A DNA stretch of 51,368 nucleotides from Ignavibacteriales bacterium (GTDB taxonomy: Bacteria > Bacteroidota > Ignavibacteria > UBA10030). A model generated the notes under the pieces. It was not told the origin of the DNA. It did not search any database and saw only the letters and a program-made list of their open reading frames with translations. The DNA lies in NCBI GenBank assembly GCA_026390595.1, contig JAPLFQ010000026.1, forward strand, positions 1-51,368, read 5' to 3'. Made by a program: the position numbers and the translations under genes. This document shows, in pieces, positions 1 to 37,728 of this stretch (positions are counted from its first letter, which is position 1; the number at the start of each line of letters is the position of its first letter).

Positions 1-1356
1 GCAGACGCGCGTCTGGCATATTCGCACGCCCTGGTCGGTGGGCCGACGGAACTGACGCAGGACGCCACAAAAAGAGTCGCGGCCTTCGAAAGCTATTTCC
101 GGTTGCAGACGCAGTATTTCAAACTGGACAGTATTTATTCTATCCTCGATATCGACAGCCTCTGGATCAAGAAGGATACGCTTGAAGGGAGGACAAAACC
201 CGATTCCTCGCTGGGCCAGAGCATGAAAGAGCAGGCTGTCTCATCGACGAGGAAAAGCCGTACCATTGCATCAGTAACAAGGGATTCCACAGCGGCTCCA
301 CAACGGGACTCCGTACTCATTAGCGCTAGGGTGGACTCCGCGATCACCTCGGCCAAAACCGATTCGCTCCGGCCAAAAGGTGACAGCGCCCTTGTCTTCG
401 CGCGAAGAGATACGCTCAACGCCCGCGGTGACACTCTTCACTCCATGGCTATGCGGGATTCGACCCAAACGAAAGCCAAAGATCTCCCAAAGTACTGGCC
501 GAAGCCTAAGAAAGACACACTGATCGCGTCGCTCGGGAAGCTTTCATACCTCACGGGTGAGTTGTTCTATGCAGATTTGGACGTTCCGGACTCTGCGTTC
601 TACTGGCTGAGCAAATCGCTCAAGCTGGGAATCGACAGCATCCAAACGCCCCGGGCCCTGTACGTATTGGCGGAGGTTGCGCGCGCAAATGCTGAAAAGA
701 AATATGGAAACGAAGAAGACCTCTATCTGCTCATCACGGAGAAATATCCGAAATCCACATACGCGGAAGAGTCTCGCATCGCGCTCGGTTTTCGTCCAAC
801 CATGAAGGAAGTGGATCCCGCTGCAGGAGTGTACGCGGTCGCGGAATCGCTCATGTATGCCGGCGAACACAAGAGGGCGCTCGATACTCTGTGGCGGATC
901 GTAGGCGAGTTTGGAGAATCCCCGCTTGTGGCGAAAAGCAGATACACTATGGCTTGGATCTATGAGAATTATCTCGCGCGTCCGGATAGCGCTCTTTCGC
1001 AATACAATACCCTTGCGCAGAAATTCGCTGCCACCAAATATGGCCTGGCCGCACAGAAACGAATTCCTCCCCTTGAAGCGCCAGTGAAGCCTGCCGCCGA
1101 TTCGCTGAAGAAAGCACTCCCGGACAGTGTCAAGTCCGCTGGCAGCGGCGTGCCTGCAAAAGCCCTTCCGGATTCGACGATGAAGGGGACGAAAATGGCG
1201 ATTCCGAAAATCGCGGACGATTCCACGGAGCACCGGAACATCACGCGTCCCCCGATGCCTGATTCATTGCGCATGCGATTCGAACCGGATCTCATGCAAA
1301 AGAAGCCCCCAGTTGAAGTCGACACAGTGAAACGTGAAGGTAAGAAGGAAAAGTAG
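1..1356 (+). CDS. TPR-repeat protein, 5' end outside the window
   Basis: The frame is open from the first base, so the start lies upstream. The visible 451 residues have two parts. The first is a low-complexity stretch in which Asp-Ser or Asp-Thr recurs about every 7-11 residues (for example RDS, VDS, TDS, GDS, RDT). The second is a helical region with tetratricopeptide-like units such as 'PDSAFYWLSKSLKLG', 'KRALDTLWRIVGEFGESPLV' and 'PDSALSQYNTLAQKF'. The tail is again Pro/Asp/Ser/Lys-rich and ends in a Lys/Glu cluster. TPR proteins of this sort in Bacteroidota and relatives are often envelope scaffolds, but nothing here fixes a partner. The stop codon overlaps the GTG start of pyrK by one base (TAGTG), so the two are probably cotranscribed. 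Specific function unknown. Confidence 0.8.
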   Translation, partial: ADARLAYSHALVGGPTELTQDATKRVAAFESYFRLQTQYFKLDSIYSILDIDSLWIKKDTLEGRTKPDSSLGQSMKEQAVSSTRKSRTIASVTRDSTAAPQRDSVLISARVDSAITSAKTDSLRPKGDSALVFARRDTLNARGDTLHSMAMRDSTQTKAKDLPKYWPKPKKDTLIASLGKLSYLTGELFYADLDVPDSAFYWLSKSLKLGIDSIQTPRALYVLAEVARANAEKKYGNEEDLYLLITEKYPKSTYAEESRIALGFRPTMKEVDPAAGVYAVAESLMYAGEHKRALDTLWRIVGEFGESPLVAKSRYTMAWIYENYLARPDSALSQYNTLAQKFAATKYGLAAQKRIPPLEAPVKPAADSLKKALPDSVKSAGSGVPAKALPDSTMKGTKMAIPKIADDSTEHRNITRPPMPDSLRMRFEPDLMQKKPPVEVDTVKREGKKEK

Positions 1357-2144
1357 TGAACGAAGCCCGTACAGCAATTATCCAGTCTTCAGTCGAGGTC
1401 GTCAGCCGCAAAGAGGTTGCCGAGAGCATCTACCGGTTGGCAATGCGATCTCCCGAGATTGTGCGACGATCGGCCCCTGGTCAGTTTGTCAATATCCGAT
1501 GCGGTGAGGGATGTTTGCCGCTCCTTCGGAGACCTTTCAGTATCTCACGCGTCGATGGCGATCTGGTTGAGCTGATGTTCAACGTCATTGGGCACGGAAC
1601 GAAGATGCTTTCATTGAAGCAGCCCGGCGATGTGCTCGATGTCCTCGGGCCGCTCGGGACTCCGTTCGGCACATCGGGGGACTTTGCCAAAGCGATCCTG
1701 GTTGGCGGTGGATTGGGAGTGGCCCCGTTTCCATTTCTCACGGATTTCCTGCTCAAAGAGAAGAAAGAAATCGTCACGCTGATTGGAGCCCGTACCCGCT
1801 CCCAGGTGACTGAACATCATCTCAGAAATATCCGGGTAGCAACGGATGATGGATCTATGGGGCTCAAAGGGAATGTCGTTGACCTCCTGAAGGCCGAATT
1901 GAGAGGTGTGGTTGGAACGAATGTGAAAGTATTCGGTTGTGGTCCCACCGCTATGTTGAAGGCGTTGTCTGCTTACGCGTCCAGCATGGGAATTGAGTGC
2001 GAACTTTCCCTGGAAGGAGATATGGCGTGCGGAATGGGGATTTGTCAGGGATGTCCCGTTGAGCGGACTGACGGCAAGAAGAAGTATGCCCTTGTCTGCA
2101 CAGATGGCCCGACCTTTAAAAGTAAAGATGTCATTCTTCGGTAG
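1356..2144 (+). CDS. pyrK: Dihydroorotate dehydrogenase B, electron transfer subunit PyrK
   Basis: PyrK carries electrons from PyrD's FMN through FAD and a [2Fe-2S] cluster to NAD+ in the fourth step of pyrimidine synthesis. The 262-residue protein has the expected order of ferredoxin-reductase-like parts: an FAD-binding motif RRPFSIS (residues 58-64), an NAD-binding Gly-rich loop GGGLGVAPF (117-125), and four C-terminal cysteines at about 225, 230, 233 and 248 in the PyrK spacing C-x4-C-x2-C-x14-C. It starts with GTG, overlapping the upstream stop by one base, and pyrD follows after 3 bases. The pairing with a class 1B PyrD makes the assignment secure. Confidence 0.95.
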   Translation: MNEARTAIIQSSVEVVSRKEVAESIYRLAMRSPEIVRRSAPGQFVNIRCGEGCLPLLRRPFSISRVDGDLVELMFNVIGHGTKMLSLKQPGDVLDVLGPLGTPFGTSGDFAKAILVGGGLGVAPFPFLTDFLLKEKKEIVTLIGARTRSQVTEHHLRNIRVATDDGSMGLKGNVVDLLKAELRGVVGTNVKVFGCGPTAMLKALSAYASSMGIECELSLEGDMACGMGICQGCPVERTDGKKKYALVCTDGPTFKSKDVILR

Positions 2145-2147
2145 TGT

Positions 2148-3089
2148 ATGAAAGAATCCTTCTCCATACGAGGCGTCGAATTTCGAAACCGGGTGCTGGT
2201 TGCATCGGGCACGTTTGGCTATGGCGACGAGGTCAAACATCTCGTGGACGTAAACGAACTCGGAGGGATCTGCACAAAGTCGTTGTCCTGGAAACCCCGC
2301 GATGGTAATCCGCCGCGTCGCATTGTTGAAACGCCAAGCGGCATGCTAAACTCCATCGGTCTGGCGAATATCGGCGTGCATTCGTTCATTCAGGAGAAGC
2401 TGCCGTATCTCAGGACTCTCAACACAACGATTATTGCCAACATAGCGGCGAGTTCGGTGCAGGAGTATTGCGACGTCTTATCCCTTCTGGAACAGCAGGA
2501 AGGGATCCACGGATACGAGATCAACATTTCGTGCCCCAATGTGAAGGAAGGGGGCCTGAACTTCGGGACCAACTGCGACATGACACGCCAGATCACCGCG
2601 CGGCTCAGGCCCTTGACTCAAAAACCCCTCATTCTGAAACTGACGCCAAACGTCACGCACATATCCGAGTTCGCGAAAGCAGTCGAGGAAGCTGGCGCAG
2701 ATGCGGTTTCGGTCATAAATACGCTTATAGGCATGGCTGTCGACATCCGCGCGCGCAAACCCAAGCTTTCAACTGTGACAGGCGGACTTTCCGGTCCTGC
2801 AATCAAGCCGGTAGCTCTCGCGAAAGTCTATGAAGTGGCTCAGGTGGTGAAGATACCAATCATCGGCATCGGCGGAATTATGACTGCCGAAGATGCTGCC
2901 GAATTCCTGCTCGTCGGCGCGACGGCCGTTCAGGTTGGCACAGCGAACTTTGTCGATCCCTCGACAGGCGTCAAGGTTGCGAAGGGGCTGCGAGCATTTG
3001 CCGAGTCGCAGGGTCTTTCGGATGTGGGACAACTTGTCCGTGCCATGGAGTCAAATGTGCAGTTTTCCGTCATGCAATCCTGGCTTTGA
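2148..3089 (+). CDS. pyrD: Dihydroorotate dehydrogenase, class 1B catalytic subunit
   Basis: Oxidises dihydroorotate to orotate in the cytosol using FMN. The 313 residues form a TIM-barrel protein of normal length. The motif NISCPN places the catalytic base at Cys129; class 1A/1B enzymes use Cys where membrane-bound class 2 enzymes use Ser. Other visible elements are TKS (43-45) near the FMN and the phosphate-binding loop GIGGI followed by GATAVQVGTANF near the C-terminus. The gene lies 3 bases after pyrK, as expected for the NAD-linked class 1B heterotetramer, and its stop overlaps the folC TTG start (TTGA). Confidence 0.96.
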   Translation: MKESFSIRGVEFRNRVLVASGTFGYGDEVKHLVDVNELGGICTKSLSWKPRDGNPPRRIVETPSGMLNSIGLANIGVHSFIQEKLPYLRTLNTTIIANIAASSVQEYCDVLSLLEQQEGIHGYEINISCPNVKEGGLNFGTNCDMTRQITARLRPLTQKPLILKLTPNVTHISEFAKAVEEAGADAVSVINTLIGMAVDIRARKPKLSTVTGGLSGPAIKPVALAKVYEVAQVVKIPIIGIGGIMTAEDAAEFLLVGATAVQVGTANFVDPSTGVKVAKGLRAFAESQGLSDVGQLVRAMESNVQFSVMQSWL

Positions 3090-4201
3090 CCTTTTCCTCA
3101 TTTCCCTTGCTCACATACTCTCAATCCATTCAACTCCTTTTCGGGCTTGAACGGCTCGGAATGAAATTTGGCCTCGAAGGGATCTCCCGGCTCCTCAAGG
3201 AGTTGAAAGATCCGCAGAAGGAATTCCCCTCCGTGCACATCGCCGGTACGAATGGCAAAGGGTCGACTGCGTCGATGCTCGCTGCGATGCTGACAGCGGC
3301 AGGATATAAGACCGGGCTGTATACTTCACCCCACCTCGTCAAGTTCGAGGAGAGGATCCGCATCGACGGAAAAGCGATCCCGCGTGCCTCATTGAGCAGG
3401 CTCACCACGTTTCTGAAGCGGTCGATACTCAGGCACCATCCCACGTTTTTCGAAGCGACAACGGCTATTGCGTTTGCCCACTTTGCCCAGCGGGAGGTCG
3501 ATGTCGCGGTCATCGAAACCGGTCTCGGCGGTCGGCTCGACTCGACGAATGTGTTGCGTCCGGTCTGCTCTGTTATCACGAACATCGGCCTGGAGCACAC
3601 CGAAATACTGGGAGATACTCTGGAGAAGATCGCTCTTGAGAAAGCTGGGATTGTGAAGAAGGACACTCCCTGTGTCACAGGAATTCGTGAGCCGCGGGCT
3701 CTTGCTGTGTTGAAAAGAGCATGCAGACAGAACCACGCTCCATTGTTTCTCGGAACCGGGTACCGCGCCAGGGTGAGAGAGGCTACACTTGAAGGAACTT
3801 TGGTCGATTTCACCTTGGGAAAGAACAAGTATAAGAACCTCCGGGTCTCCCTGCCCGGACAGTACCAGCTGGGGAATCTGGGGGTTGCACTTCGGGCCGT
3901 TCAGGTGCTGAATGATTCGGGTTCATTTCGGATCGATGAGGCAGCACTTCGAAACGGGCTCGCCTCTCGGCTCTCCGATCAGGTCGTGGCAGTAGCTGCT
4001 CATACGCCCAGGTCACGCTCTGCAAGCGATATTGCAGCAGCATTTGAAAGGGAGAAATGCAGAACCCGGGCAGCTCTGAGTGTTGAAGGAGGTATCAGGC
4101 TTGCGATGGAGCTCGCCGGACCGAATGGAACGATTCTCGTCACAGGGTCGCATTTTGTCGTCGGCGAAGCCGTGGCAGCTCTGGGCCTAAAAAGGGCTTG
4201 A
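3086..4201 (+). CDS. folC: Folylpolyglutamate/dihydrofolate synthase FolC with internal C-domain deletion
   Basis: FolC adds glutamate to dihydropteroate or folates with ATP. The N-terminal Mur-ligase-like domain is complete: P-loop AGTNGKGST (residues 53-61), YTSPHLV, the ETGLGGRLDSTN motif and the ITNIGLEHTEILGDT loop. The chain is only 371 residues against about 420-430 for the family. After 'AALRNGLA' (about residue 293) it passes directly to 'LSDQVVAVAAHTPRS', which aligns by eye with a segment normally about 50-55 residues further on. The missing part should hold the conserved DGAHNP motif at the start of the C-domain. The end (VTGSHFVVGEA) is normal and the frame is intact. The TTG start overlaps the pyrD stop by 4 bases and matches the usual N-terminus. 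Family is certain; activity is doubtful. Confidence 0.9.
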   Translation: MTFSSFPLLTYSQSIQLLFGLERLGMKFGLEGISRLLKELKDPQKEFPSVHIAGTNGKGSTASMLAAMLTAAGYKTGLYTSPHLVKFEERIRIDGKAIPRASLSRLTTFLKRSILRHHPTFFEATTAIAFAHFAQREVDVAVIETGLGGRLDSTNVLRPVCSVITNIGLEHTEILGDTLEKIALEKAGIVKKDTPCVTGIREPRALAVLKRACRQNHAPLFLGTGYRARVREATLEGTLVDFTLGKNKYKNLRVSLPGQYQLGNLGVALRAVQVLNDSGSFRIDEAALRNGLASRLSDQVVAVAAHTPRSRSASDIAAAFEREKCRTRAALSVEGGIRLAMELAGPNGTILVTGSHFVVGEAVAALGLKRA

Positions 4202-4226
4202 CAATCAGGGCTCATTGGGGTATATT
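4198..4226 (+). promoter_or_regulatory. Sigma70-type promoter of rho, with palindrome over the -10 box
   Basis: TTGACA (4198-4203) and TATATT (4221-4226) are separated by exactly 17 bases, a near-consensus housekeeping promoter. The -35 box overlaps the folC stop codon. The -10 box is embedded in a perfect inverted repeat GGGGTA-tat-TACCCC (4217-4231). Transcription should start near 4233, leaving a leader of about 180 bases before rho. Confidence 0.75.
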
Positions 4227-4232
4227 ACCCCC

Positions 4233-4411
4233 GTAGTTCTTGAAGTTTCTTCTGTTCGTGTTGTTTGTCATCCAACCAATTCACTTCTCAATCGTCAAAT
4301 CGCTACTCCCAACCTTTGATACTTCAACGTAGGTCATCCTCAGCGCCAACGAGAGGATTTCGTTTTCAGATTTCTCCAACTCCATCTTTCTTCCAATAGG
4401 ATCGTTCTACT
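4233..4411 (+). promoter_or_regulatory. Long C-rich, G-poor leader of rho (possible rut/attenuation region)
   Basis: About 180 bases separate the predicted transcription start from the rho ATG. From 4271 to 4320 there are roughly 18 C against 3 G, with many YC dinucleotides, and I see no stable hairpin. This is the composition of a Rho utilisation site. In E. coli, rho limits its own expression by terminating in its leader; the same is inferred here but not shown. Confidence 0.45.
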
Positions 4412-5665
4412 ATGCCAATGGACATTACCGAACTCAAGTCCAAAAAGATCGCCGAGCTGAATCAGATTGCAAAAGAACTGAATATTTCAGGGTACAGTGA
4501 TCTTCGAAAACAGGAACTCATTTTCAAGATTCTCGAAGCTCAGACAACGAAGGACGGCCTTAGCTTCAGCAAAGGGGTTCTTGAGGTACTGCCGGACGGG
4601 TATGGCTTTCTGCGTTCCGTAAACTACAACTATCTTCCCTCTCCCGACGACATTTACGTTTCTCCCTCTCAGATCAAGAAATTCGGCCTTCGGACGGGAG
4701 ATAGTGTGAGCGGCCAGGTTCGCCCCCCCAAGGAAGGCGAACGGTTCTTCGCACTCCTGCGCGTCGAGGCCGTCAACGACGACCATCCGGACGTAATCAG
4801 GGAACGGACGCTGTTCGACAACCTGACGCCGTTGTACCCCACAAGTCGGCTCAAGCTCGAGACTGCGCCTGGTGAGTATTCGATGAGGATTATGGACCTC
4901 CTCGCCCCCATAGGCAAAGGTCAGCGCGGTATGATCGTTTCTCCGCCAAAAGCAGGCAAGACGGTTATCTTGCAGAAGATCGCAAACAGCATCCTCCGTA
5001 ATCATCCAGAAGTAAAGCTCATCGTATTGTTGATCGACGAACGCCCCGAAGAAGTGACCGATATGGAGCGGACAGTCGGTGCTGAAGTGGTGAGTTCTAC
5101 GTTTGACGAACCACCCGAGAGGCACGTGCAGGTGTCCGACATGGTACTGGAGAAGGCGAAACGCCTTGTGGAAGCGAAAAAGGACGTGGTTATTCTCCTG
5201 GATAGCATTACACGGCTTGCCCGTGCACACAATACCGTTATTCCTCACAGCGGCAAGATCCTCTCCGGCGGTGTGGACGCAAACGCTCTCCACAGGCCGA
5301 AACGCTTCTTCGGAGCAGCACGAAACATCGAAGAAGGAGGGAGCCTTACGATTATTGCAACGGCTCTTGTCGAAACCGGCAGCCGTATGGACGAAGTTAT
5401 CTTCGAAGAATTCAAGGGAACCGGCAACAACGAAATTGTGCTCGACCGCAAGCTGAGCGATCGTCGAGTCTTCCCGGCGATCGACGTCAACCGGTCTGGA
5501 ACACGCAAAGAAGAACTCCTTCAGGATGCGGAGGAACTCGCTCGTGTCTGGATCCTCCGAAAACTGCTGAGCGACCTTACGCCCGTGGAGGCAATGGAAT
5601 TCCTGCTTGAGAAGATGAGGGGAACGAAATCGAACAAAGAATTCCTGAAGTCGATGAATAGCTGA
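4412..5665 (+). CDS. rho: Transcription termination factor Rho
   Basis: Hexameric RNA-dependent ATPase/helicase that ends transcription at unstructured C-rich RNA. The 417 residues have the standard order: N-terminal SAP-like helical domain (1-45, '[18 protein letters not shown]'), cold-shock-like RNA-binding domain (about 50-125, '[15 protein letters not shown]'), then the RecA-type ATPase. Visible are the P-loop SPPKAGKT, Walker [16 protein letters not shown], the Q-loop segment [20 protein letters not shown] and the R-loop segment [20 protein letters not shown]. No large insertion is present. A second ATG two codons downstream is an alternative start. The gene has its own promoter and seems monocistronic. 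Confidence 0.97.
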
Positions 5666-5754
5666 TCCTGTAGTGTGGGGGAGCAGTGGGGAGCGTGGTA
5701 TTGCATGCGGCGTGAATCCTTCCTGATAGTCCAATCATTCGGAAAGAACTGAGT

Positions 5755-6936
5755 ATGGCAAACGATGTCGTCATCGTGGGTGCCTGCAGGACCCCTATTG
5801 GCTCATTCATGGGATCGCTCGCTTCGGTCAGTGCTCCCCGGCTTGGCGCTCTTGTAGTCGAGGAGGCGGTTCGCAGAGCTGGTATCGGGAAGACCGATGT
5901 GCAGGAAGTCATTATGGGAAACGTCCTGGCTGCCGGCATTGGACAGGCCCCCGCCCGTCAGGCCGCGCTGTTCGCGGGTCTCCCGGATTCAGTCGAATGT
6001 CTGACGATCAACAAGATGTGCGGCTCCGGTCTCAAGGCTGTCATGCTCGCAGCCCAGGCCATACAGCTGGGAGATGCGGATTCAATTGTTGCAGGCGGTA
6101 TGGAAAGCATGTCGAACTCGCCATACCTGCTCGAAAAGGCGCGTGATGGATACAAAATGGGCCATGGCAAGATCATCGATTCGATGATCAGGGATGGCCT
6201 GTGGGATGTTTACAACGATTTCCACATGGGGAACGCCGCGGAAATCTGTGCGCGTGAATGTTCCATCCCCAGGGAAGCCCAGGATGAATTCGCCATCCTC
6301 AGCTACAAACGGGCACAAAGTTCCTGGACTGACGGCAGGTTCAAGGAGGAAGTTATCCCCGTGACGCTCAAGAACAAGCAAGGCGACAGTCTCGTTGAAC
6401 AGGACGAGGAGCCTTTCAAAACGGATTTCGAAAAAGTACCGAAGTTAAAACCGGCATTTCAGCAGGATGGGACTGTCACCGCAGCAAATGCGTCGAAAAT
6501 CAACGATGGCGCCGCAGCGTTGTCTGTGATGTCAACGACGAGGGCGGCACATCTCGGCGTGAAACCATTGGCAAGAATTGTTGGCTTTGCATCGTCCGCG
6601 AAAAAACCGGAGTGGTTTACAACAGCACCGGTGGATGTGATTAAGAAGGTACTCACACGATGCGACCTGAAAGTCGAGGACATCGACCTCTTTGAAGTCA
6701 ATGAAGCGTTCTCGGTTGTTTCGCTCGCAGTCCAGAAGATGGTGGGAATCGATATGGAGAAGCTAAACGTCAATGGCGGGGCTGTGGCTTTGGGACATCC
6801 CATCGGCGCAAGCGGCGCACGAATCCTCGTAACGTTGCTCCATGCACTGAAACAACGAAACAAGAGGCGGGGATTGGCGGCAATCTGCATCGGTGGGGGT
6901 GAGGCGAGCGCGGTAGTTGTCGAGCTTCTCAAGTGA
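5755..6936 (+). CDS. Acetyl-CoA C-acetyltransferase (thiolase)
   Basis: Catalyses reversible condensation of two acetyl-CoA, or thiolysis of 3-ketoacyl-CoA. The 393 residues are full length. Catalytic residues are visible: nucleophile Cys89 in NKMCGSG, His348 in GHPIGASGA, and Cys378 in CIGGGEAS. The NEAF motif (FEVNEAFSV) is present. It is the first of three genes forming a short-chain fatty acid pathway (thiolase, 3-hydroxyacyl-CoA dehydrogenase, acyl-CoA dehydrogenase). The sequence resembles biosynthetic-type acetoacetyl-CoA thiolases, but chain-length preference cannot be read from it. 'GGAAAG' upstream of the ATG is a plausible ribosome binding site. Confidence 0.93.
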   Translation: MANDVVIVGACRTPIGSFMGSLASVSAPRLGALVVEEAVRRAGIGKTDVQEVIMGNVLAAGIGQAPARQAALFAGLPDSVECLTINKMCGSGLKAVMLAAQAIQLGDADSIVAGGMESMSNSPYLLEKARDGYKMGHGKIIDSMIRDGLWDVYNDFHMGNAAEICARECSIPREAQDEFAILSYKRAQSSWTDGRFKEEVIPVTLKNKQGDSLVEQDEEPFKTDFEKVPKLKPAFQQDGTVTAANASKINDGAAALSVMSTTRAAHLGVKPLARIVGFASSAKKPEWFTTAPVDVIKKVLTRCDLKVEDIDLFEVNEAFSVVSLAVQKMVGIDMEKLNVNGGAVALGHPIGASGARILVTLLHALKQRNKRRGLAAICIGGGEASAVVVELLK

Positions 6937-6973: not shown

Positions 6974-7840
6974 ATGATAACGGAACAGATCAAAGCGGTG
7001 ACAGTTGTCGGAGCTGGTACCATGGGCAATGGCATTGCCCACACATTCGCACAGTTCGGCTATGCGGTGACGCTCCACGATGTCAAACAAGAGTTCATTG
7101 ACCGTGGTCTCCAGACTATTCGAGCGAATCTTGATCGGCAGGTCAAGAAGGGGGCAATCACCGAAGAGAAAAAGGCGGTGACGGTTGGCCGAATCAAGGC
7201 GGAGCTGATCCTCGAAGCAGCGTGCAGCGGGGCCGACATCATTATCGAAGCGGCCACCGAGAACGAGCCGATCAAGAAACAGCTCTTCAGGGATTTCGAC
7301 AGGTTTGCGAAAGTCTCCACAATCCTCGCATCCAATACGTCGTCGATCTCGATCACAGAGTTGGCCGCCGTCACCGCAAGGCCTGCGAAGGTCATCGGGA
7401 TGCACTTCATGAATCCCGTCCCTGTCATGAAACTCGTTGAGGTCATACGCGGACTTGCGACGACAGATGAAACGTACCAGACAGTGAAGTCGCTTTCTGA
7501 ATCGCTCGAGAAGGTGCCTGTTGAGGTGAATGACTATCCGGGATTCGTCTCAAACCGGGTTTTACTGCCGATGCTCAACGAGGCGATGTACTGTGTCATG
7601 GAAGGAGTTGCGACCCCCGAATCGATTGACACGGTCATGAAACTCGGCATGAATCACCCGATGGGTCCGCTGACCCTGGCGGATTTCATCGGCCTGGATG
7701 TCTGTTTGTCGATCATGGAAGTTCTCCACAAGGGACTTGGAGATTCAAAGTACCGCCCGTGCCCACTTCTGAAGAAGATGGTTGCAGCAGGACATCTTGG
7801 ACGGAAAACGGGCCGGGGATTTTACACGTACACAACCTGA
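6974..7840 (+). CDS. 3-hydroxybutyryl-CoA dehydrogenase
   Basis: NAD(P)-dependent interconversion of acetoacetyl-CoA and 3-hydroxybutyryl-CoA. The 288-residue, single-function form has the N-terminal Rossmann loop [12 protein letters not shown] (11-22), the catalytic His144 in [19 protein letters not shown] with Glu156 as partner, and the C-terminal helical domain with '[16 protein letters not shown]' and '[17 protein letters not shown]'. It lies 37 bases after the thiolase and 9 bases before the acyl-CoA dehydrogenase, so the three are probably one operon. The symbol hbd would fit but a role in synthesis or degradation is not decided by the sequence. Confidence 0.94.
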
Positions 7841-29841: not shown

Positions 29842-30216
29842 CTACTCCTTTGTATCGGTTTTGCAGCAGGCGTCCAGTTTCTCGTATGCGGCAGGATCAC
29901 GCTTGATGTTGTTCGCGTCGTAGCCGGCGTTTGAGATGGCTTTCTCGATCTGTGAAAGCGAGACCTTCGTTGACGCGTACGTCACCGTGGCGGTCTTTTT
30001 CTTGAGATCGATCTTTGTCGATTTGACACCTTCAACTGTTTTCAAAGCCTTCGTAATTGTGCTGACACACATGCCGCAGACAACAGTCGGCACTTTGACG
30101 ATGGCTGTTTCAACCTTTGCTGCAGTTTTTGTCGTTTCAGCCTTCGGTTTTGTCTGGGCCGACAATACTGAGATAGCCAGCACTGCGATGACGATAAACG
30201 AGAAGATCTGTTTCAT
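29842..30216 (-). CDS. Periplasmic heavy-metal-associated (HMA) domain protein
   Basis: 124 residues with a signal peptide (1-20, cleavage near VLSAQ) and one HMA ferredoxin-like domain: VPTVVCGMCVSTITKAL holds the metal-binding pair Cys47-x-x-Cys50, followed by 'VEGVKSTKIDLKKKTATVTY' and 'LSQIEKAISNAGYDAN'. The C-terminal tail adds a Cys-Cys pair (KLDACCKT). It is the last gene of the copper/silver efflux operon, 83 bases after cusA. No CusF is present, so it may be the periplasmic metal carrier for the pump; that is inference. Ribosome binding site AAAGGAG lies upstream. Confidence 0.9.
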   Translation of the reverse strand: MKQIFSFIVIAVLAISVLSAQTKPKAETTKTAAKVETAIVKVPTVVCGMCVSTITKALKTVEGVKSTKIDLKKKTATVTYASTKVSLSQIEKAISNAGYDANNIKRDPAAYEKLDACCKTDTKE

Positions 30217-30299: not shown

Positions 30300-33200
30300 T
30301 CAATCTTTCATCCAGCCCGACATATGGGAACGTTTGAGAGTCCCTTTTTTCAATGACCGCTCCTTCATGTATGTGAATAGTATGGGAGTTACGACCAGGA
30401 CGTGTATGGTGGACGTGACCAGTCCCCCTATCATTGGGGCTGCGAGCGGCTGCATGACATCTGCTCCGACGCCTGTGCTCCACATGATGGGAACAAGGCC
30501 TATCATTGCCGTGGCCACTGTCATCACTTTCGGTCGAAGGCGAAGCACCGATCCTTCAACGGTTGCCTCAGTAATGTCCTGATTTGTTATAGTCCCGCGA
30601 CGACCTAACTCGTGGTCCCGGACTCGCCTGTCGAGGGCCTCGTGGAGATACACGACCATCACCACGCCTGTCTCGACAGCAAGTCCGTACAAGGCGATAA
30701 ACCCCACCCAGACAGCCACGGAGAGATTGTACCCCAGGATGTAAACGAGATATACTCCTCCGATGAGCGCGAATGGAACGGAGAGCATCACAACTAGCGC
30801 TTCCAGAAAATCCTTCGTTACAAAATACAGCATCACGTAGATGATCAGGAACACGAGTGGCATCAGGATAGTCAGCCGCTCCTTTGCCCGTATCTGGTTC
30901 TCCCACTGCCCGCTCCATTGGACTGTGTATCCCGCCGGTAAGACGAGTTGCTTGTCGAGTACTCCCTTTGCCTCATTCACGAAACTTCCCATATCTCTTC
31001 CACGGACGTTGAGGAAGACGATAGATCGTAGTTGTGCGTCCTCGCTGGATATCATGGGGGGACCGGGCGCAACAGAGATCGAGGCGAGCTGGCTGAGAGG
31101 CACGTAGCTGCCTTTGAACAGCGATCCCGACGATTGGTCCGGCGCTTTCGATCGAGGGGCCGGGACCGTTGCTGACATACTAGAACCGGACATTGATCCC
31201 CCTCCTGAAGAAGCTGAAGAGGAGGTCGTCATCTTCGTCGATCCTGACGGACTCATCGTGTTCGTCGGGACGAGCAGACCTCGAAGCGCCTCCAGATTGT
31301 TGCGGAAGTCTTGTTGGTACCGCACACGGATCGGAAAACGTTGCCGCCCCTCGATCACTGTTCCGATGTTTTCTCCGCCGATAGCCGTTTCAATGACGTC
31401 CTGCACATCGCCGATGTTTATCCCATAACGCGCAACGGCGGCACGGTCGATGTCGATATCGACAAACAATCCTCCCTGTGTTCGTTCGGCATAGAGATCT
31501 GCTGCGCCGGGGACCTGCCGAAGAATCTGTTCGGCGTGAATGGCGAGCTGTTCGAGGGTGTCAAGGTCTCTTCCGAAAATCTTCACGCCCAGATCGGTGC
31601 GAACGCCCGTCGAGAGCATGTTGATCCGGTTGATGATGGGTTGAGTCCAGCCGTTTCGGACTCCCGGAATCTGCAGCTTGGCATCAAGCTCGGCGATGAT
31701 GTCGTTGGTCGTGAGACCTGGGCGCCAGTGCGACTTTGGCTTCAGGAGGATAATACTTTCAATCATGCTTACGGGGGCAGGGTCGGTGGAGGTTTCCGCT
31801 TTACCTGCCTTCCCAAGAACGAGCTCGACTTCGGGGACGGACTTGATGATCTGATCCTGCGTTTGCATGATGCGATTCACCTCCGTGATCGATGCGGAGG
31901 GGAGTGTTACCGGCATGAAGAGCAGGCTTCCTTCGTCGAGCGGGGGCATGAATTCTGACCCCATTCTGATGAGCATCGGTACGGCAATGACGAGTGCGAG
32001 GATGTTCAGACCGATCGTTGTCTTCCGCCACCGAAGCACCCAGTGGATGATCGGCGCATAGAGGTTGTTGAGAACCCTGGTAACCGGATTCCTGTTCTCT
32101 GTTCTGAACTTGCCCCGTGTCAACATCGTCATGAGCATTGGAACAAGTGTTATCGCGATGATGGCTGAGCCTGCGAGCACGAATGTTTTCGTGAAGGCGA
32201 GCGGGCGGAAAAGCTTGCCTTCCTGTCCCTCAAGAAGAAAGACCGGCAGGAACGAGACGACCATGATTGCCACGGAATAGAAAATAGCCGGTGCGACTTG
32301 CTTTGCAGAAAGGATGGAAATCTCCACATAGTCTTTCGTTTCCAAAGTCCCTTTCTCTTCCTGCGCACGGGCGACGTTTCGATAGGCGTTCTCAACGAGA
32401 ACGATGGAGGAGTCCACAATGACCCCTATGGCGATCGCAATCCCTCCGAGCGACATGATATTGGACGTGACTCCGAACAGTTTCATGAATATGAAGGCGA
32501 TCAGAACTGCGATCGGTATTTCGATGATGACCCGAAGGACACTCCGGACATGAAGAAGGAAGATGAGGACGATCAGGGTCACAATCAGCGCTTCCTCGAC
32601 AAGCGCTTTCTTCAAGGTGCCAATTGCAGCGGTGATGAGGTCGCTTCGATCATACGCCGTTTTGATCTCGACCCCCCTGGGCAGGCCCGGAGTGATCTCT
32701 GTGATCCGTCGTTTCACTCTGTCGATGACATCCTTGGCGTTTTCGCCGTACCGCATCACCACAATGCCGCCGACAGCTTGTCCCTCGCCGTTCTTCTCAA
32801 GCGAACCGCGCCGCAAGTCCGGACCGAGCTCCACCGTTGCAATATTTCTAATGTAAACGGGGATTCCGTTCGTGCCGGTTGATACAACGGCATTCTCTAC
32901 ATCATGCACGGATCGAATGTATCCCTGGCCACGAACGAAATACTCGGCGTCGGACATTTCGATGATCTTGCCGCCGACATCGTTGTTCGAGCGCATGACA
33001 GCGTTTTTGATGTCACCCAGCGAAACGCCGTATGACTTCATCTTTTGAGGATTGATGTTCACCTGATACTGTCTGACGAATCCTCCCACGGAGGCGACCT
33101 CTGCCACACCCGGGACGCCCTGCAGGTTCAGCTTGATGTACCAGTCCTGAATCGCGCGCAAAGCTCCGAGATCGTATTTCCCCTCCACGGTGTACCAGTA

Positions 33201-33617
33201 CACATGCCCGACACCTGTGCCGTCCGGGCCAAGTTCCATTTTTGCGCCAGCGGGAAGTGCAGATTGAACGGTCGAGAGTTTCTCGAGAACCCGGCTGCGC
33301 GCCCAATAGAGGTCTGTCGACTCGTCGAAGATAATGTAGACGAATGACATCCCAAACATTGATTGAGCTCGAATGGCATGGACTTTTGGCACACCCTGCA
33401 ACGCTGTGACCAGCGGAAAGGTGACCTGATCCTCTATGATCTGCGGGGAACGTCCCATCCATTCGGTGAAAACAATCACCTGGTTCTCAGACAGATCCGG
33501 GATCGCATCTGTCGGCGTATGGATGACCGCCCAGATGCCCCAGCCAGCGATGAAGAGGTATACCAGGATCACGATGAATTTGTTCCTGGAACAGTAATCG
33601 ATGATGTGTTCTATCAT
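30300..33617 (-). CDS. cusA: Copper/silver efflux RND pump CusA
   Basis: Inner-membrane, proton-driven pump of the CusCBA complex exporting Cu(I)/Ag(I). 1105 residues with 12 membrane helices in RND order. The three methionines that bind Cu/Ag in E. coli CusA are matched by eye in LLFMPVTLPS, APVSMIESI and RINMLSTGV. A stretch of about 50 residues rich in Ser, Gly and Met (coded by about 31115-31270) interrupts the periplasmic domain before GSYVPLSQLA and is absent from typical CusA. ATG 33617 is taken rather than TTG 33623. The upstream cusB ends about 55 bases later on the map and partly shares the spacer. Confidence 0.95.
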   Translation of the reverse strand: MIEHIIDYCSRNKFIVILVYLFIAGWGIWAVIHTPTDAIPDLSENQVIVFTEWMGRSPQIIEDQVTFPLVTALQGVPKVHAIRAQSMFGMSFVYIIFDESTDLYWARSRVLEKLSTVQSALPAGAKMELGPDGTGVGHVYWYTVEGKYDLGALRAIQDWYIKLNLQGVPGVAEVASVGGFVRQYQVNINPQKMKSYGVSLGDIKNAVMRSNNDVGGKIIEMSDAEYFVRGQGYIRSVHDVENAVVSTGTNGIPVYIRNIATVELGPDLRRGSLEKNGEGQAVGGIVVMRYGENAKDVIDRVKRRITEITPGLPRGVEIKTAYDRSDLITAAIGTLKKALVEEALIVTLIVLIFLLHVRSVLRVIIEIPIAVLIAFIFMKLFGVTSNIMSLGGIAIAIGVIVDSSIVLVENAYRNVARAQEEKGTLETKDYVEISILSAKQVAPAIFYSVAIMVVSFLPVFLLEGQEGKLFRPLAFTKTFVLAGSAIIAITLVPMLMTMLTRGKFRTENRNPVTRVLNNLYAPIIHWVLRWRKTTIGLNILALVIAVPMLIRMGSEFMPPLDEGSLLFMPVTLPSASITEVNRIMQTQDQIIKSVPEVELVLGKAGKAETSTDPAPVSMIESIILLKPKSHWRPGLTTNDIIAELDAKLQIPGVRNGWTQPIINRINMLSTGVRTDLGVKIFGRDLDTLEQLAIHAEQILRQVPGAADLYAERTQGGLFVDIDIDRAAVARYGINIGDVQDVIETAIGGENIGTVIEGRQRFPIRVRYQQDFRNNLEALRGLLVPTNTMSPSGSTKMTTSSSASSGGGSMSGSSMSATVPAPRSKAPDQSSGSLFKGSYVPLSQLASISVAPGPPMISSEDAQLRSIVFLNVRGRDMGSFVNEAKGVLDKQLVLPAGYTVQWSGQWENQIRAKERLTILMPLVFLIIYVMLYFVTKDFLEALVVMLSVPFALIGGVYLVYILGYNLSVAVWVGFIALYGLAVETGVVMVVYLHEALDRRVRDHELGRRGTITNQDITEATVEGSVLRLRPKVMTVATAMIGLVPIMWSTGVGADVMQPLAAPMIGGLVTSTIHVLVVTPILFTYMKERSLKKGTLKRSHMSGWMKD

Positions 33618-33671
33618 AGCCAACCTGAATTCTGTGTCGAAAAACGAATTGAGCCTGCCGGGCCCTCGGTG

Positions 33672-34925
33672 CTATTTCTTGTGTTCTCCCGTCGCTGCAA
33701 CCTGGAGTTGGCTTTCCGAATCAATAAGGAATCCACCTGAGACCGCAACTGCCTCTCCCTCGTTCAATCCATCAAGCACCTGGTAGAAATCGCCGGCTCT
33801 GTGTCCCAGTTTGACAGCCCGCGCTTCAAAGTGATTCGCTTCTCCTTCTACCCACACCACACTGTTTCTTCCCGTAGTGATGACCGCCGACGCCGGAACG
33901 ACGATTGCCTTTGCAAGAGAAATGTGAAGAACAGCCTGAGCGAACATCTCTGGTTTCAGCTTGTAGCCAGCGTTGTTCAACGACGCCCTCACGCGGACTG
34001 TTCTGGTGGAGGGTTCAACAACTGCTCCAATGAAAGACACGGTTCCTCGAAACTCTTCTGACGGATAAGCATCGATGGTCGCCGTGACGATCTGGCCGAG
34101 TTTAACCGCCGCAAGTTCGGATTCATAAACCTCCATCTGGAGCCAGACGGTGCGGAGGTCCGACACGTCAAAGAGAGGGTCGCCCGGAGCAATGTATTGC
34201 TGGAGGTCGACATTCTTTCTGATCACCGTCCCGGAAACGGGTGAGTGAACAGTGACGAGCGTTTTGACGATTGAGGTCCTGGCGAGTTCGTCGATCTGCG
34301 TATCTGTGAATCCCCAGTATTGGAGCTTCGATCTGGAATTCTCGGTGAGGAGTGGAGCTCTGCGTTCTGAATGGTCAAGTACTTCCGTTTCCCGAGTCGA
34401 TGTTCCAAGCGTAACCAGAAACTCACGCTGAGCCGCAATGGCCTCGGGGCTGTAGATGTCGGCGACCGGATCGCCGCGTCTGACTTGCTGTCCGGTGTAC
34501 GAGATAGAGAGTTTCTCGATCCGGCCTCCAAACCGCGCTGTGATTTGCTGCGTGTTTGGCTCGGCATTATAGATCTTTCCCGCGAGGATGAGCTCCCTCG
34601 TGAGGGATCTCGATTCCGTTTGGAATGTCGCGACGTTCGCGAGAACCTGTCGTGCGGTCGTGAGGTGCACGGATCCTGACTGATTTCCAGATTCGGCTGA
34701 TGTTTCAATCTCGGAGACCTTCACCAGCGTCATATGACAGACAGGGCACACTCCTGCTTTGTCGCTCCTCACCGACGGATGCATTGGGCAGGTATAGTAA
34801 TCAGATGCGGCCTGGCGATGCGCTTCATTGTTCGCGGAGTCGCGGCCTTCATTCTTTGACCCGCAGCCCGAAAACGGCAGCCCGAACGCGGTGAGGATAA
34901 TGAACAACGAAATGAAATATCTCAT
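33672..34925 (-). CDS. cusB: Copper/silver efflux periplasmic adaptor CusB
   Basis: Membrane-fusion protein joining CusA and CusC. 417 residues: a lipoprotein signal with lipobox FSGC (18-21), a heavy-metal-binding YHS-like domain with YTCPMHPSV and CPVCHM (about 43-68), then barrel-sandwich, alpha-hairpin and beta-barrel parts ('LSISYTGQQVRRGDPVADIYSPE', 'VHSPVSGTVIRKNVDLQQYIAPGDPLFDV', 'VRASLNNAGYKLKPEMFA'). The metal-binding domain at the N-terminus may receive copper directly. The start overlaps the cusC stop by 4 bases (ATGA). Confidence 0.95.
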   Translation of the reverse strand: MRYFISLFIILTAFGLPFSGCGSKNEGRDSANNEAHRQAASDYYTCPMHPSVRSDKAGVCPVCHMTLVKVSEIETSAESGNQSGSVHLTTARQVLANVATFQTESRSLTRELILAGKIYNAEPNTQQITARFGGRIEKLSISYTGQQVRRGDPVADIYSPEAIAAQREFLVTLGTSTRETEVLDHSERRAPLLTENSRSKLQYWGFTDTQIDELARTSIVKTLVTVHSPVSGTVIRKNVDLQQYIAPGDPLFDVSDLRTVWLQMEVYESELAAVKLGQIVTATIDAYPSEEFRGTVSFIGAVVEPSTRTVRVRASLNNAGYKLKPEMFAQAVLHISLAKAIVVPASAVITTGRNSVVWVEGEANHFEARAVKLGHRAGDFYQVLDGLNEGEAVAVSGGFLIDSESQLQVAATGEHKK

Positions 34926-36223
34926 TGATGATGGTCCTTTCCAAAGGAAGCAACGAATTGAATGTCGGTCACCCCAACGGACCGTTCTAGCGATGCAAGC
35001 GTTTCCTGATAGCTCATTTGTGCCATTGCGTAATCGAGTTGCATTTCGTTGAACATGCGGTATCCGTCGAGAACCATCATGTAAGACGTTGTTCCGGTCT
35101 CGTATTCACTCAGAAGAAGCTGGATGGATTGGCGCAACTGAGGCAGTATGGTATTCCGGATTGTGAGGAACTGCGTCTCCAGGGATTGCAGCGATGCGTA
35201 GCCTGAACGGATTTGCAGCTCCACATTGTTTTGTGAAGCCGTGTACATTGACGAGATCATCAGGTGTTCTGCCTCTGCTTCCTGAACTCTCGAAGTCGCC
35301 TTCGCAATTGACCAGGGAGCGAAGGGAAGGGTGATCCCGGCGGACACGCTCCACCGGTTCTCCATCATGACTGGCATGCGGACGTATTCGACCGAGAACT
35401 TGAAATCGGGGAGGTATTCCTTCTTCATCAAGCTGATCGTCAGAGATTTTTCCAGGACGTTGAGCGAATCGTGCATCAGCATTGGCCTGTTGCGGTGTGC
35501 GTACGCCAGCAGGGCGTCGATTGTTGGAAGAGGAACCGGTCCGCGGGCTACATCAATCTGACCGATTGGTGCCGTTGACTTGCGATTGAGGAGCGCCCGC
35601 AGGGTGCTCTCACTGCTAGTGATTTGTTCACGAATCTTTGCTTCGTTCATCGAAATCCTGGCAAGCTCGATGTTGGTCTTCAGGACCTCCTGCTGTGACG
35701 CTTTGCCCACGGTATAGGCGGTCTCAGCGGACCGCAGGATTTTCGTCAGGATATCCCTGTTCGATGTATTGAGGGTCAGCGATTCACGGGCGAACCAGAG
35801 CATCGCAAGAGAGGTTTTCAACTGAGCCACGATCGCAAGCACGGTCTCCATGTGCTCATGCTGAGCATGTTCCGTGAGGAGTTCAGCGATAGAGCGCTGT
35901 GTGGAGAGCTTGGCCGGGAATGTGACGACCTGCATGAGCTCGATATTGGCGAATGTGGCCTTGTTGAAGTCGGTACCCGGGATTTCCATGAGCTTGAAAT
36001 TCAGTTCGGGATCCATGAGAGCGCCTGCTTGTGGAACGCGCGCACGCGCCGCCTCCATTTTATGCATCTCGACAGCGATCTCCGGGTTTCGTGAAAGCGC
36101 TTCTGTGATGAGTTCTTGAATGTTCTCTGCCTTTGCGTCGACGGACAAAGGATGCACGCTTTGTGCCATCGCAGTCTGTAGGAAGAGAACAGCCAGCAGA
36201 AGCATCGCGTTGGCGTACTTCAT
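34922..36223 (-). CDS. cusC: Outer-membrane efflux channel CusC (TolC family)
   Basis: 433 residues with a signal peptide (1-20) and two outer membrane efflux protein (OEP) repeats of long helices, e.g. 'NIQELITEALSRNPEIAVEMHKMEAARARVPQAGALMDPEL' region and 'NNVELQIRSGYASLQSLETQFLTIRNTILPQLRQSIQLLLSEYETG' region, the latter the classic second-repeat signature. It forms the trimeric outer-membrane tunnel for CusBA. Cleavage by signal peptidase I is likely, as no lipobox Cys is present, unlike E. coli CusC. Overlaps cusB by 4 bases; 83 bases after the small Cys-rich gene. Confidence 0.93.
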   Translation of the reverse strand: MKYANAMLLLAVLFLQTAMAQSVHPLSVDAKAENIQELITEALSRNPEIAVEMHKMEAARARVPQAGALMDPELNFKLMEIPGTDFNKATFANIELMQVVTFPAKLSTQRSIAELLTEHAQHEHMETVLAIVAQLKTSLAMLWFARESLTLNTSNRDILTKILRSAETAYTVGKASQQEVLKTNIELARISMNEAKIREQITSSESTLRALLNRKSTAPIGQIDVARGPVPLPTIDALLAYAHRNRPMLMHDSLNVLEKSLTISLMKKEYLPDFKFSVEYVRMPVMMENRWSVSAGITLPFAPWSIAKATSRVQEAEAEHLMISSMYTASQNNVELQIRSGYASLQSLETQFLTIRNTILPQLRQSIQLLLSEYETGTTSYMMVLDGYRMFNEMQLDYAMAQMSYQETLASLERSVGVTDIQFVASFGKDHHQ

Positions 36224-36306
36224 TGTTGCTCCTTGGTTTAGATGTGGCTATGTATCGAGACTGAGGAAATGGCCTCTGAGGGCAATGCAGGGAAGAACGA
36301 AGAATG

Positions 36307-36699
36307 CTAAATGAGTAAAGCGGAAGAAAGGAGATAAATTGGGTTGGGCGAAACCGGTGGTCCCGTGTCGGATGCATAGTGAAACTGCTCTGGATGCGCG
36401 GGATCCGCTATGGGCATTGTCATTGCTGACAGAACGAGAACAACTTCGGCTGCGGGGACTTGATATTTCGCAGAGCCAAGAAAAGGCATTGTGTTGCGCT
36501 CCGCCACGACCACATGGCTGCAGCAGTTCGCGCCCTCAAAAGAGATCGAAAGTCCTTCGCTGGGCGCACTGTTACAGTCGCAGACCTGGCCATCGCTCAT
36601 CATCGGGCAAACGAACATGACGATCGGGAGCCCTACGTTGAACAACGTGAATAGACCTGCGAGCGCGTATGCAACTACTATGGTAGTCCGGGATTTCAT
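36307..36699 (-). CDS. Small Cys/Met-rich membrane-anchored protein heading the copper-efflux operon
   Basis: 130 residues: one N-terminal hydrophobic segment (8-30), then cysteines at 31, 40, 42, 59 and 60 (VCPMM, VCDC, NCC), many Met, and a C-terminal 'GPP' followed by a short hydrophobic end. The hydrophobic segment acts either as signal or anchor, placing the Cys-rich part in the periplasm. The CC and PP pattern recalls small proteins (HYC_CC_PP type) near copper genes in Bacteroidota, but the HYC motif is missing, so I leave it unnamed. Position directly before cusCBA suggests metal binding or sensing. Confidence 0.75.
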   Translation of the reverse strand: MKSRTTIVVAYALAGLFTLFNVGLPIVMFVCPMMSDGQVCDCNSAPSEGLSISFEGANCCSHVVVAERNTMPFLGSAKYQVPAAEVVLVLSAMTMPIADPAHPEQFHYASDTGPPVSPNPIYLLSSALLI

Positions 36700-36771: not shown

Positions 36772-37728
36772 TCAGTCAACACGCTCCACATCGTCCAGCT
36801 TGCGCAGATCTACCCGGATATTTCCTTCGGAGGGGAGATACATGTCAGCGAACTTCGCGCCCCAAACAACTTCCCTGTATTTGTATGACGATCTCACGTG
36901 CACCGACTGGGATGATGTCTCATCGATGCCAGACAAGAGTATGATGAATTCCGCGTCTGACGCGGCGAGTTGACTCTGCGCAACGTCGGACAACGGGCTT
37001 TCATCGTTGATAGGATGAACGACCACCCAGTGGAGCGGAAAGAGCTTTACGCTGCTCCTCTCGAGCTTGAGCTCGTGAAACTTGCGCGACAGTTTGCCAG
37101 CGTGTTCTTCCATGCGGCTGAGTACGACCGTGGCATGGACCTCGACAAGCTGTGTGTTCCGGGCATTCACGATTCTGAACTCAAATGCGGTCAAGTCTTT
37201 GTAGGGTGCAATCACTGCCCGTTCGCTGAATACGATTTCAGCGTTCGGGCGGGAGAATCTGGCAAAAGCAAGCCCGGTCGCGAGCGCGAAACCAAGTCCT
37301 CCGACGAGGGCCTGTATCGTGACAAGGAAATTCGCAGCGAAGCCGGAGGGACTCAGCCCGCCGTAGCCGATCGTGGCGAGAGTCTGTACGCTGAAGAAGA
37401 ACGATTCGAGGAAACGATCACCGATTGATACTGCCTGTGATCCTGCAAGCGCCCCCGGACCGCATAAAAAATAGCCGAACGCAAAAATGAGGTTTGTGGT
37501 GAAATAGAACGCTATGAGCAGGAGAAAGAACGTCCCCCACGTCATTCGAAGGAGTGCATGATAAACGCTCAGGGAGCGGAAGAAAGAGAAACCTGTCCGG
37601 GAGACATTGAAGGATCCATCACGATTGACGAAACGTTCGTGGCTCTGCTGGAGGACCTTTGACCCGAATCCAAGATCGCGGTTGTCCTCGTCCAGTCTTT
37701 GTGTGGTCTGTGATCGTCGACGAATCAT
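36772..37728 (-). CDS. Inward-rectifier potassium channel, KirBac type
   Basis: 318 residues: cytoplasmic start, first membrane helix (about 62-86), pore helix and selectivity filter TIGYG (119-123) in 'SVQTLATIGYGGLSPSG', second helix (about 130-156), then the Kir C-terminal immunoglobulin-like domain ('FSRPNAEIVFSERAVIAPYKDLTAFEFRIVNARNTQLVEV' region, 'HWVVVHPINDESPL'). All features of KirBac tetramers are present. It lies 33 bases after bshB1 and 72 bases before the Cys-rich gene on the same strand, so it could share a transcript with either. Confidence 0.93.
   Translation of the reverse strand: MIRRRSQTTQRLDEDNRDLGFGSKVLQQSHERFVNRDGSFNVSRTGFSFFRSLSVYHALLRMTWGTFFLLLIAFYFTTNLIFAFGYFLCGPGALAGSQAVSIGDRFLESFFFSVQTLATIGYGGLSPSGFAANFLVTIQALVGGLGFALATGLAFARFSRPNAEIVFSERAVIAPYKDLTAFEFRIVNARNTQLVEVHATVVLSRMEEHAGKLSRKFHELKLERSSVKLFPLHWVVVHPINDESPLSDVAQSQLAASDAEFIILLSGIDETSSQSVHVRSSYKYREVVWGAKFADMYLPSEGNIRVDLRKLDDVERVD

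Follow-up and report, generated by a model that had tools for sequence, protein, structure and literature searches.

The window (the whole stretch of DNA analysed, 51,368 nucleotides of contig JAPLFQ010000026.1 from an Ignavibacteriales bacterium) contains a cus cluster with a small cysteine-rich protein at its head. The open reading frame of this protein, hereafter the leader, occupies positions 36307..36699 of the minus strand, begins with ATG and ends with TAG (read from 36699 to 36307), and encodes 130 amino acids. The first-pass annotation had placed a gene on this interval with no strand given, and relatives in 15 genomes of the family confirm it as real. Its N-terminus is hydrophobic, with helix predicted at residues 2–21 and 23–30, in line with the anchor suggested earlier. 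All five cysteines described there are present, namely C31 in VCPMM (codon 36607..36609, minus strand, position counted from the frame), C40 and C42 in VCDC, and C59-C60 in NCC (36520..36525, minus strand), the last two being the 72nd and 71st residues back from the C-terminus. The methionines number seven, counted by eye. The protein further carries an AERNT-PF motif, a PP pair at residues 114–115 that starts 17 residues before the C-terminal end, and a hydrophobic C-terminus (YLLSSALLI-stop).

Database scans of the leader returned two Pfam matches at chance level, far under their cut-offs, no NCBIfam family at E<=10 and no match in a PDB profile search. CXXC and RAPP are both absent, as is any known pausing motif, and no Pfam match to DUF2946 (PF11162) was obtained. 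A structure model computed from 8 input sequences was poor (mean pLDDT 47.7, pTM 0.22), with pLDDT near 70 or above in about the first 20 residues only, and left the protein largely without predicted structure. Like CusF, the leader is a small protein of cus loci; unlike CusF, it has no Pfam CusF match and its poor model contains no beta-barrel.

Downstream of the leader and on the same minus strand lie cusC (34922..36223, an outer membrane efflux protein with Pfam domain PF02321), cusB (33672..34925, HlyD_D23 with the heavy metal binding domain HMBD), cusA (30300..33623, ACR_tran, HME-RND) and, as the last gene of the cluster, an HMA-domain protein (29842..30216). The leader and cusC are separated by a gap of 83 nt (36224..36306, minus strand) with an AAGGAG Shine-Dalgarno sequence and a weak hairpin, which begins about 30 nt past the leader stop (-4.7 kcal, p 0.26). 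Upstream, at 72 nt and on the same strand, a gene for a Kir-type (inward-rectifier K) channel was observed (36772-37728). Both here and in two congeners, the channel gene sits between a PIG-L gene and the leader, a place where it was not detected in the other family loci; in most other readable family loci, the nearest upstream gene among those searched for is PIG-L itself. A sigma-70 promoter scan at the window locus found nothing. The leader had been called the first gene of the cus operon; this stands for the cus cluster, whereas the transcript may begin farther upstream, given the Kir gene so close on the same strand.

Relatives of the leader and the HYC_CC_PP family

Among 32 searched genomes of the window's family, 21 gave some match at E<=0.1 and 15 were found to hold a clear relative after reading of the frames. 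One of these genes is split across two contigs, and the 14 full sequences were aligned (set A1). Matches in L020, L021 and L023–L025 (E 0.03–0.09) were read as spurious. In the alignment, C31, C40, C59 and C60 are invariant (14/14), C42 is not conserved, the AERNT-PF motif is near-invariant, and every member ends in LLI, FLI or FLL; PP is missing from the last 25 residues in 3 of the 14. Cysteine conservation, on which the first-pass annotation had staked its proposal, was thus found for four of the five residues. In all 13 readable family loci the leader is followed immediately by cusC in the same orientation; two more loci end at contig edges. These loci mostly share one common neighbourhood and are therefore not independent. 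A more distant type (A2), which hhalign links to A1 at E 1.4e-9, precedes cusA in four genomes of the family (L016–L019).

Across the phylum, 395 genomes were searched with the A1 profile, and 22 gave a match at E<=0.01. From the 17 matched genomes outside the family, 15 loci were taken; G077 and G419, whose 41-aa frames contain a stop, were omitted. Of these 15 loci, found by profile alone, 14 have a same-strand CusA gene downstream and the remaining one an HMA gene. We also inspected fifteen cusA-like regions. Five of them (L115, L116, L117, L120 and L121) hold a divergent protein ahead of cusC or cusA with, by eye, the same cysteine and C-terminal pattern, three carry a second type of leader (see below), and the other regions are too short or repeat known loci. 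At G022:C189 there is no separate leader ahead of the cus genes.

The HYC_CC_PP family (NF047658) takes its name from its motifs alone. The leader is a remote homologue of this family. Neither the window protein nor any A1 member matches the NF047658 model; the homology is read from profiles and intermediate sequences. Eleven aligned order- and class-level relatives (A7) connect with A1 at E 1.4e-23 in hhalign and with HYC_CC_PP (A6) at 1.1e-17, while A1 and A6 compared directly give 1.7e-9. Moreover, of 9 order- and class-level relatives, 4 score above the 28-bit cut-off of NF047658 (L069, for example, at 40.7 bits), and one A2 member matches HYC_CC_PP weakly (E 0.0067). Other weak NCBIfam and Pfam matches to single members were judged to be chance. 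The first-pass annotation had seen a faint likeness to these proteins, and on the strength of the profile comparison this likeness amounts to remote homology. C31 and CC are present in the window protein, as is PP at 114–115, together with a similar C-terminus and the same kinds of locus; it differs from the family in scoring under the model cut-off and in lacking the H-Y of HYC. NF047658 itself matches 34 of 118 searched genomes of the phylum at E<=0.001, and 22 aligned members have a mean column identity of 27%.

For HYC_CC_PP, 40 of 42 rows were used, with 2 weak rows omitted. CusA or HMA genes were found downstream on the same strand, at most 2.5 kb away, in 36 of these 40 loci (18 CusA, 18 HMA). 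By tblastn, 18 CusA and 17 HMA genes were detected; Pfam read the remaining five loci as one HMA, two TonB receptors, one cytochrome c with porin, and one with nothing. TonB receptor domains occur in the gene next to the leader at L135, L142, L160, L169 and L173, and a plug domain at L158. Metal loci prevail among the homologues in each group (13/13 in the family, 14/15 further out, 36/40 in HYC_CC_PP), the opposite of what the first-pass annotation had named as a refutation.

The distance from the conserved cysteine to the stop is nearly fixed. It was 68–74 residues in 66 of 75 proteins when the last CC was taken as the reference and, for the A2 types, a lone Cys chosen post hoc; the 'last CC' rule by itself gives 57 of 74. 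By group, 14/14 of A1, 11/11 of A7, 10/10 of the A2 type and 31/40 of HYC_CC_PP fall in this range, the full span in HYC_CC_PP being 67–80. About 65–70 residues of a nascent chain span the distance from the peptidyl transferase centre to the far side of the translocon, and the cysteine site would therefore just emerge as the last codon is reached. A folded domain could instead account for the near-fixed length, the structure model being poor.

Two further observations concern other loci. At L116 (G027:C79), a 20-residue match to the usual cusA end (7629-7688) lies beside a cusCBA of a different type (604-6805) encoded on the opposite strand, as though one cus cluster had taken the place of another. 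The window's own genome also encodes an unrelated small cysteine-rich frame that ends in RPPIAA, upstream of another HME-RND pump (G000:C24:29954-30298; L125:5955-6302, plus strand). Matches to this second leader type were identified in 10 of the 32 family genomes, the window's own included, at 11 places (relatives L175–L185). In 9 of the 11, frames ending in the searched pattern have CxCxC or CxC 45–49 residues from the end, and in 6 an HME-RND pump follows on the same strand. A masking test (see below) at L125 gave ddG -1.6 (p 0.95) and is an unfair one, because the start chosen opens only a 41-aa ORF; two other loci of this type were skipped.

RNA between the leader end and the next start site

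Of 13 family loci, 12 have a gap of 66–86 nt between leader and cusC. With all groups taken together, a hairpin starting some 20–30 nt after the stop reached p<=0.05 in 14 of 31 loci, with shuffles as the only null. In the masking tests, a model ribosome was parked at the leader end, covering the RNA to +12 nt from the first stop base, and the gain in accessibility of the next gene's site was compared with shuffles (40 or 60, which sets a floor for a single p-value of about 0.024 or 0.016). Long or uncertain gaps were omitted, leaving 29 (Shine-Dalgarno) and 28 (start site) of 34 loci and removing 7 of 40 HYC_CC_PP loci; L036 and L079 are absent from all three tests, and the downstream start codon was picked by hand where several were possible. 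Control pairs were mechanically called tandem ORFs (>=120 aa, gap 50–150 nt) from the same loci, some of which are perhaps not genes. Those from family loci served for the Shine-Dalgarno site, and start-site controls came from HYC_CC_PP loci.

With the Shine-Dalgarno sequence as the target, 15 of 29 leaders reached p<=0.05 against none of 51 control pairs, among which the 26 pairs with a site of -4 kcal or better also gave none. For the start site, the non-HYC_CC_PP leaders gave 11 of 28 at p<=0.05 (mean gain 3.8 kcal/mol) and the HYC_CC_PP leaders 24 of 33 (4.8 kcal/mol). The controls from HYC_CC_PP loci gave 3 of 53 (mean gain 0.07), and 3 of these 53 gained at least 3 kcal. When the worst p in each HYC_CC_PP genus was taken, 16 of 24 genera stayed at p<=0.05 (genus labels copied by hand). 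The gain depended on how far the ribosome reached. In the first set, it averaged 0.1 kcal with the edge at -9, 1.5 kcal at -3 and 3.8 kcal at +12; the corresponding HYC_CC_PP means were 0.8, 1.3 and 4.8 kcal. Most of it was achieved once the edge stood between +9 and +12, counted from the first stop base, and the curve was approximately flat beyond. The family loci alone (n=12) were weakly positive (Stouffer 0.002 and 0.005, mean gain 1.6 kcal at +12), and L028, L030 and L039 displayed little or no masking effect.

Duplexes between the leader end and the next start region were also compared with windows from the same locus. Here 10 of 34 loci reached p<=0.05, with a combined p of 4e-10 to 4e-9 across loci that are not all independent; at L041 the mean of the null makes no sense, probably because some windows contained masked bases. 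In a 'swap' duplex test, the permutations that did as well numbered 0 of 20000 for all 34 loci, 0 for the order/class set and 182 for A2, and the test was weak for the family set (1721/20000) and for four 51%-type loci (3357/20000). We do not rely on this test because base composition between genomes can drive its result. In an alignment of six A2-type gaps, 11 of 35 predicted pairs had changed on both sides, the covariation term was small (-0.69), and many predicted pairs were broken in one or two sequences. The family gaps could not be aligned by MAFFT.

At the window locus, the leader-end codons are pyrimidine-rich (36310-36339, minus strand), and among them lies CTCCTT, the complement of the cusC AAGGAG. 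These two sequences are paired in the minimum-energy fold, but the accessibility tests give little gain: 0.8 kcal (p 0.20) for the Shine-Dalgarno site and 1.0 kcal (p 0.17) for the start site. This gain was unstable with the stretch folded (-1.2 to +1.1 kcal), longer stretches disclosed no switch, and the duplex did not surpass random windows (p 0.65). Masking RNA is thus shown for many relatives and falls short of significance at the window locus.

Comparison with published copper leaders and a proposed role

Two published systems resemble this arrangement. CutF of Rhodobacter capsulatus is a copper leader whose gap structure masks the next Shine-Dalgarno sequence (Ozturk et al. 2023, PMC9973294), and that paper lists many CutF-like proteins of Bacteroidota with cus genes among their neighbours. 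Its filter asked for fewer than 150 aa, a same-strand downstream gene within 1000 nt, PP in the last 15 residues and a putative N-terminal signal peptide. The window protein falls within the size and distance limits (130 aa, 83 nt) and has no PP in the last 15 residues, a feature that 17 of 51 proteins counted do possess. As described there, CutF likewise is a small cysteine protein with a hydrophobic N-terminus and a conserved C-terminus, made directly before a copper gene, and its masking gap structure has a counterpart here in the relatives, not significant in the window. It differs in having CxxxC in place of CPMM...C...CC; the window protein ends in the hydrophobic LLI with PP farther in (absent in some relatives), and no common family model was found. 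The name HYC_CC_PP was not found in the literature searched, and some of its members may already stand in the published CutF-like list (PMC9973294).

CruR of Bordetella pertussis (DUF2946, PF11162; PMC9426467) is reported to be poorly structured, to have 45 residues between CXXC and RAPP, a conserved distance that matters for regulation, and to act through Rho in reducing the expression of a TonB receptor. The leader shares with it the position at the head of a copper-linked operon, the near-fixed distance from the cysteine motif to the end and a poorly structured protein, and some HYC_CC_PP leaders also precede TonB-dependent receptor genes. CruR differs in its CXXC and RAPP, both missing from the window protein, whose cysteines lie about 71 residues from the end, and CruR lowers its target, whereas copper should raise a cus pump. 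The second leader type is closer to CruR than the window protein is.

On balance, the window protein probably serves the cusCBA-HMA cluster as a copper leader acting in cis. In kind it would stand with CutF and CruR, although it comes from a different protein family. This reading draws computationally on the family, the conservation of the cysteines and the C-terminus, the position, the spacing and the masking RNA of many relatives. Copper as the ligand, the pausing and the export are inferred from the CutF (PMC9973294) and CruR (PMC9426467) models together with the conserved cysteines; the sign of regulation and the use of the same output step in the window genome are likewise inferred. In the proposed mechanism, the nascent chain would be targeted by its N-terminal helix and threaded into the periplasm during synthesis. 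With the ribosome at the last codons, some 71 residues would separate NCC from the peptidyl transferase centre, and NCC would be newly outside, along with C31 and C40. Copper bound by the emerged cysteines might hold or fold the chain, and the ribosome would then slow on the conserved hydrophobic C-terminus (LLI-stop). The waiting ribosome would cover the last codons and about 9–12 nt further, bases that in many relatives are predicted to pair with the Shine-Dalgarno or start region of the next gene, so that the start site would be freed and the pump made.

The first-pass annotation had left open a copper sensor, a chaperone or a sink. Its sensor option, acting in cis, is favoured because of the fixed place ahead of the cluster, the near-fixed distance from cysteine to stop, the conserved C-terminus and the openable RNA of many relatives. 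The main rival is a membrane-anchored periplasmic chaperone or sink that would feed CusB/CusA as a functional stand-in for CusF. The exported-looking N-terminus, the invariant cysteines, the CPMM motif and the constant company of cus genes all suit this rival, which we nevertheless regard as unlikely: in the loci examined, the gene lies ahead of the metal genes and never among them, members of the wider family stand before HMA and TonB receptor genes as well, no folded domain is predicted (from 8 sequences only), and a chaperone would not be expected to keep a near-fixed cysteine-to-stop distance and conserved last residues, nor would it explain the masking RNA of the relatives. The TonB receptor genes would also count against the leader reading, since opposite copper responses are expected for pumps and for receptors and the same family precedes both.

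A plain translational coupler, in which translation of the small frame opens the next start site with no sensing of metal, agrees with the RNA tests, as these show only the release of the start by a ribosome at the leader end. The invariant cysteines, their near-fixed distance to the stop and the link with copper-type genes are all unexplained by such a coupler, and we judge it improbable. Least probable of all, in our view, is a small membrane subunit or protein-level regulator of the CusA pump: a single N-terminal helix and co-occurrence with CusA/CusC would fit, whereas the HYC_CC_PP relatives also precede HMA or TonB receptor genes with CusA undetected in the stretch fetched, and the RNA element would be needless. 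Under the cis-acting leader reading, the earlier description of an undescribed component of a known system is only partly right, since CutF and CruR already represent this kind.

More tentatively, and with less than even confidence, the whole HYC_CC_PP superfamily, the Ignavibacteria branch included, may consist of periplasmic copper-reading ruler leaders, in which a cysteine 71 +/- 3 residues from the stop would emerge at the last codon and a ribosome held on the hydrophobic LLI-stop, rather than on proline or RAPP, would open the next gene. RAPP/RGPP leaders of copper genes have been described in various lineages, and that report places Bacteroidota among the exceptions (PMC12992588); the family of the window protein and HYC_CC_PP could fill this gap. 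If the leader reading is true, NF047658, a family known only by its letters, would gain a function, and translational copper sensing would reach cus pumps by way of leaders whose end is not RAPP and not strictly based on proline.
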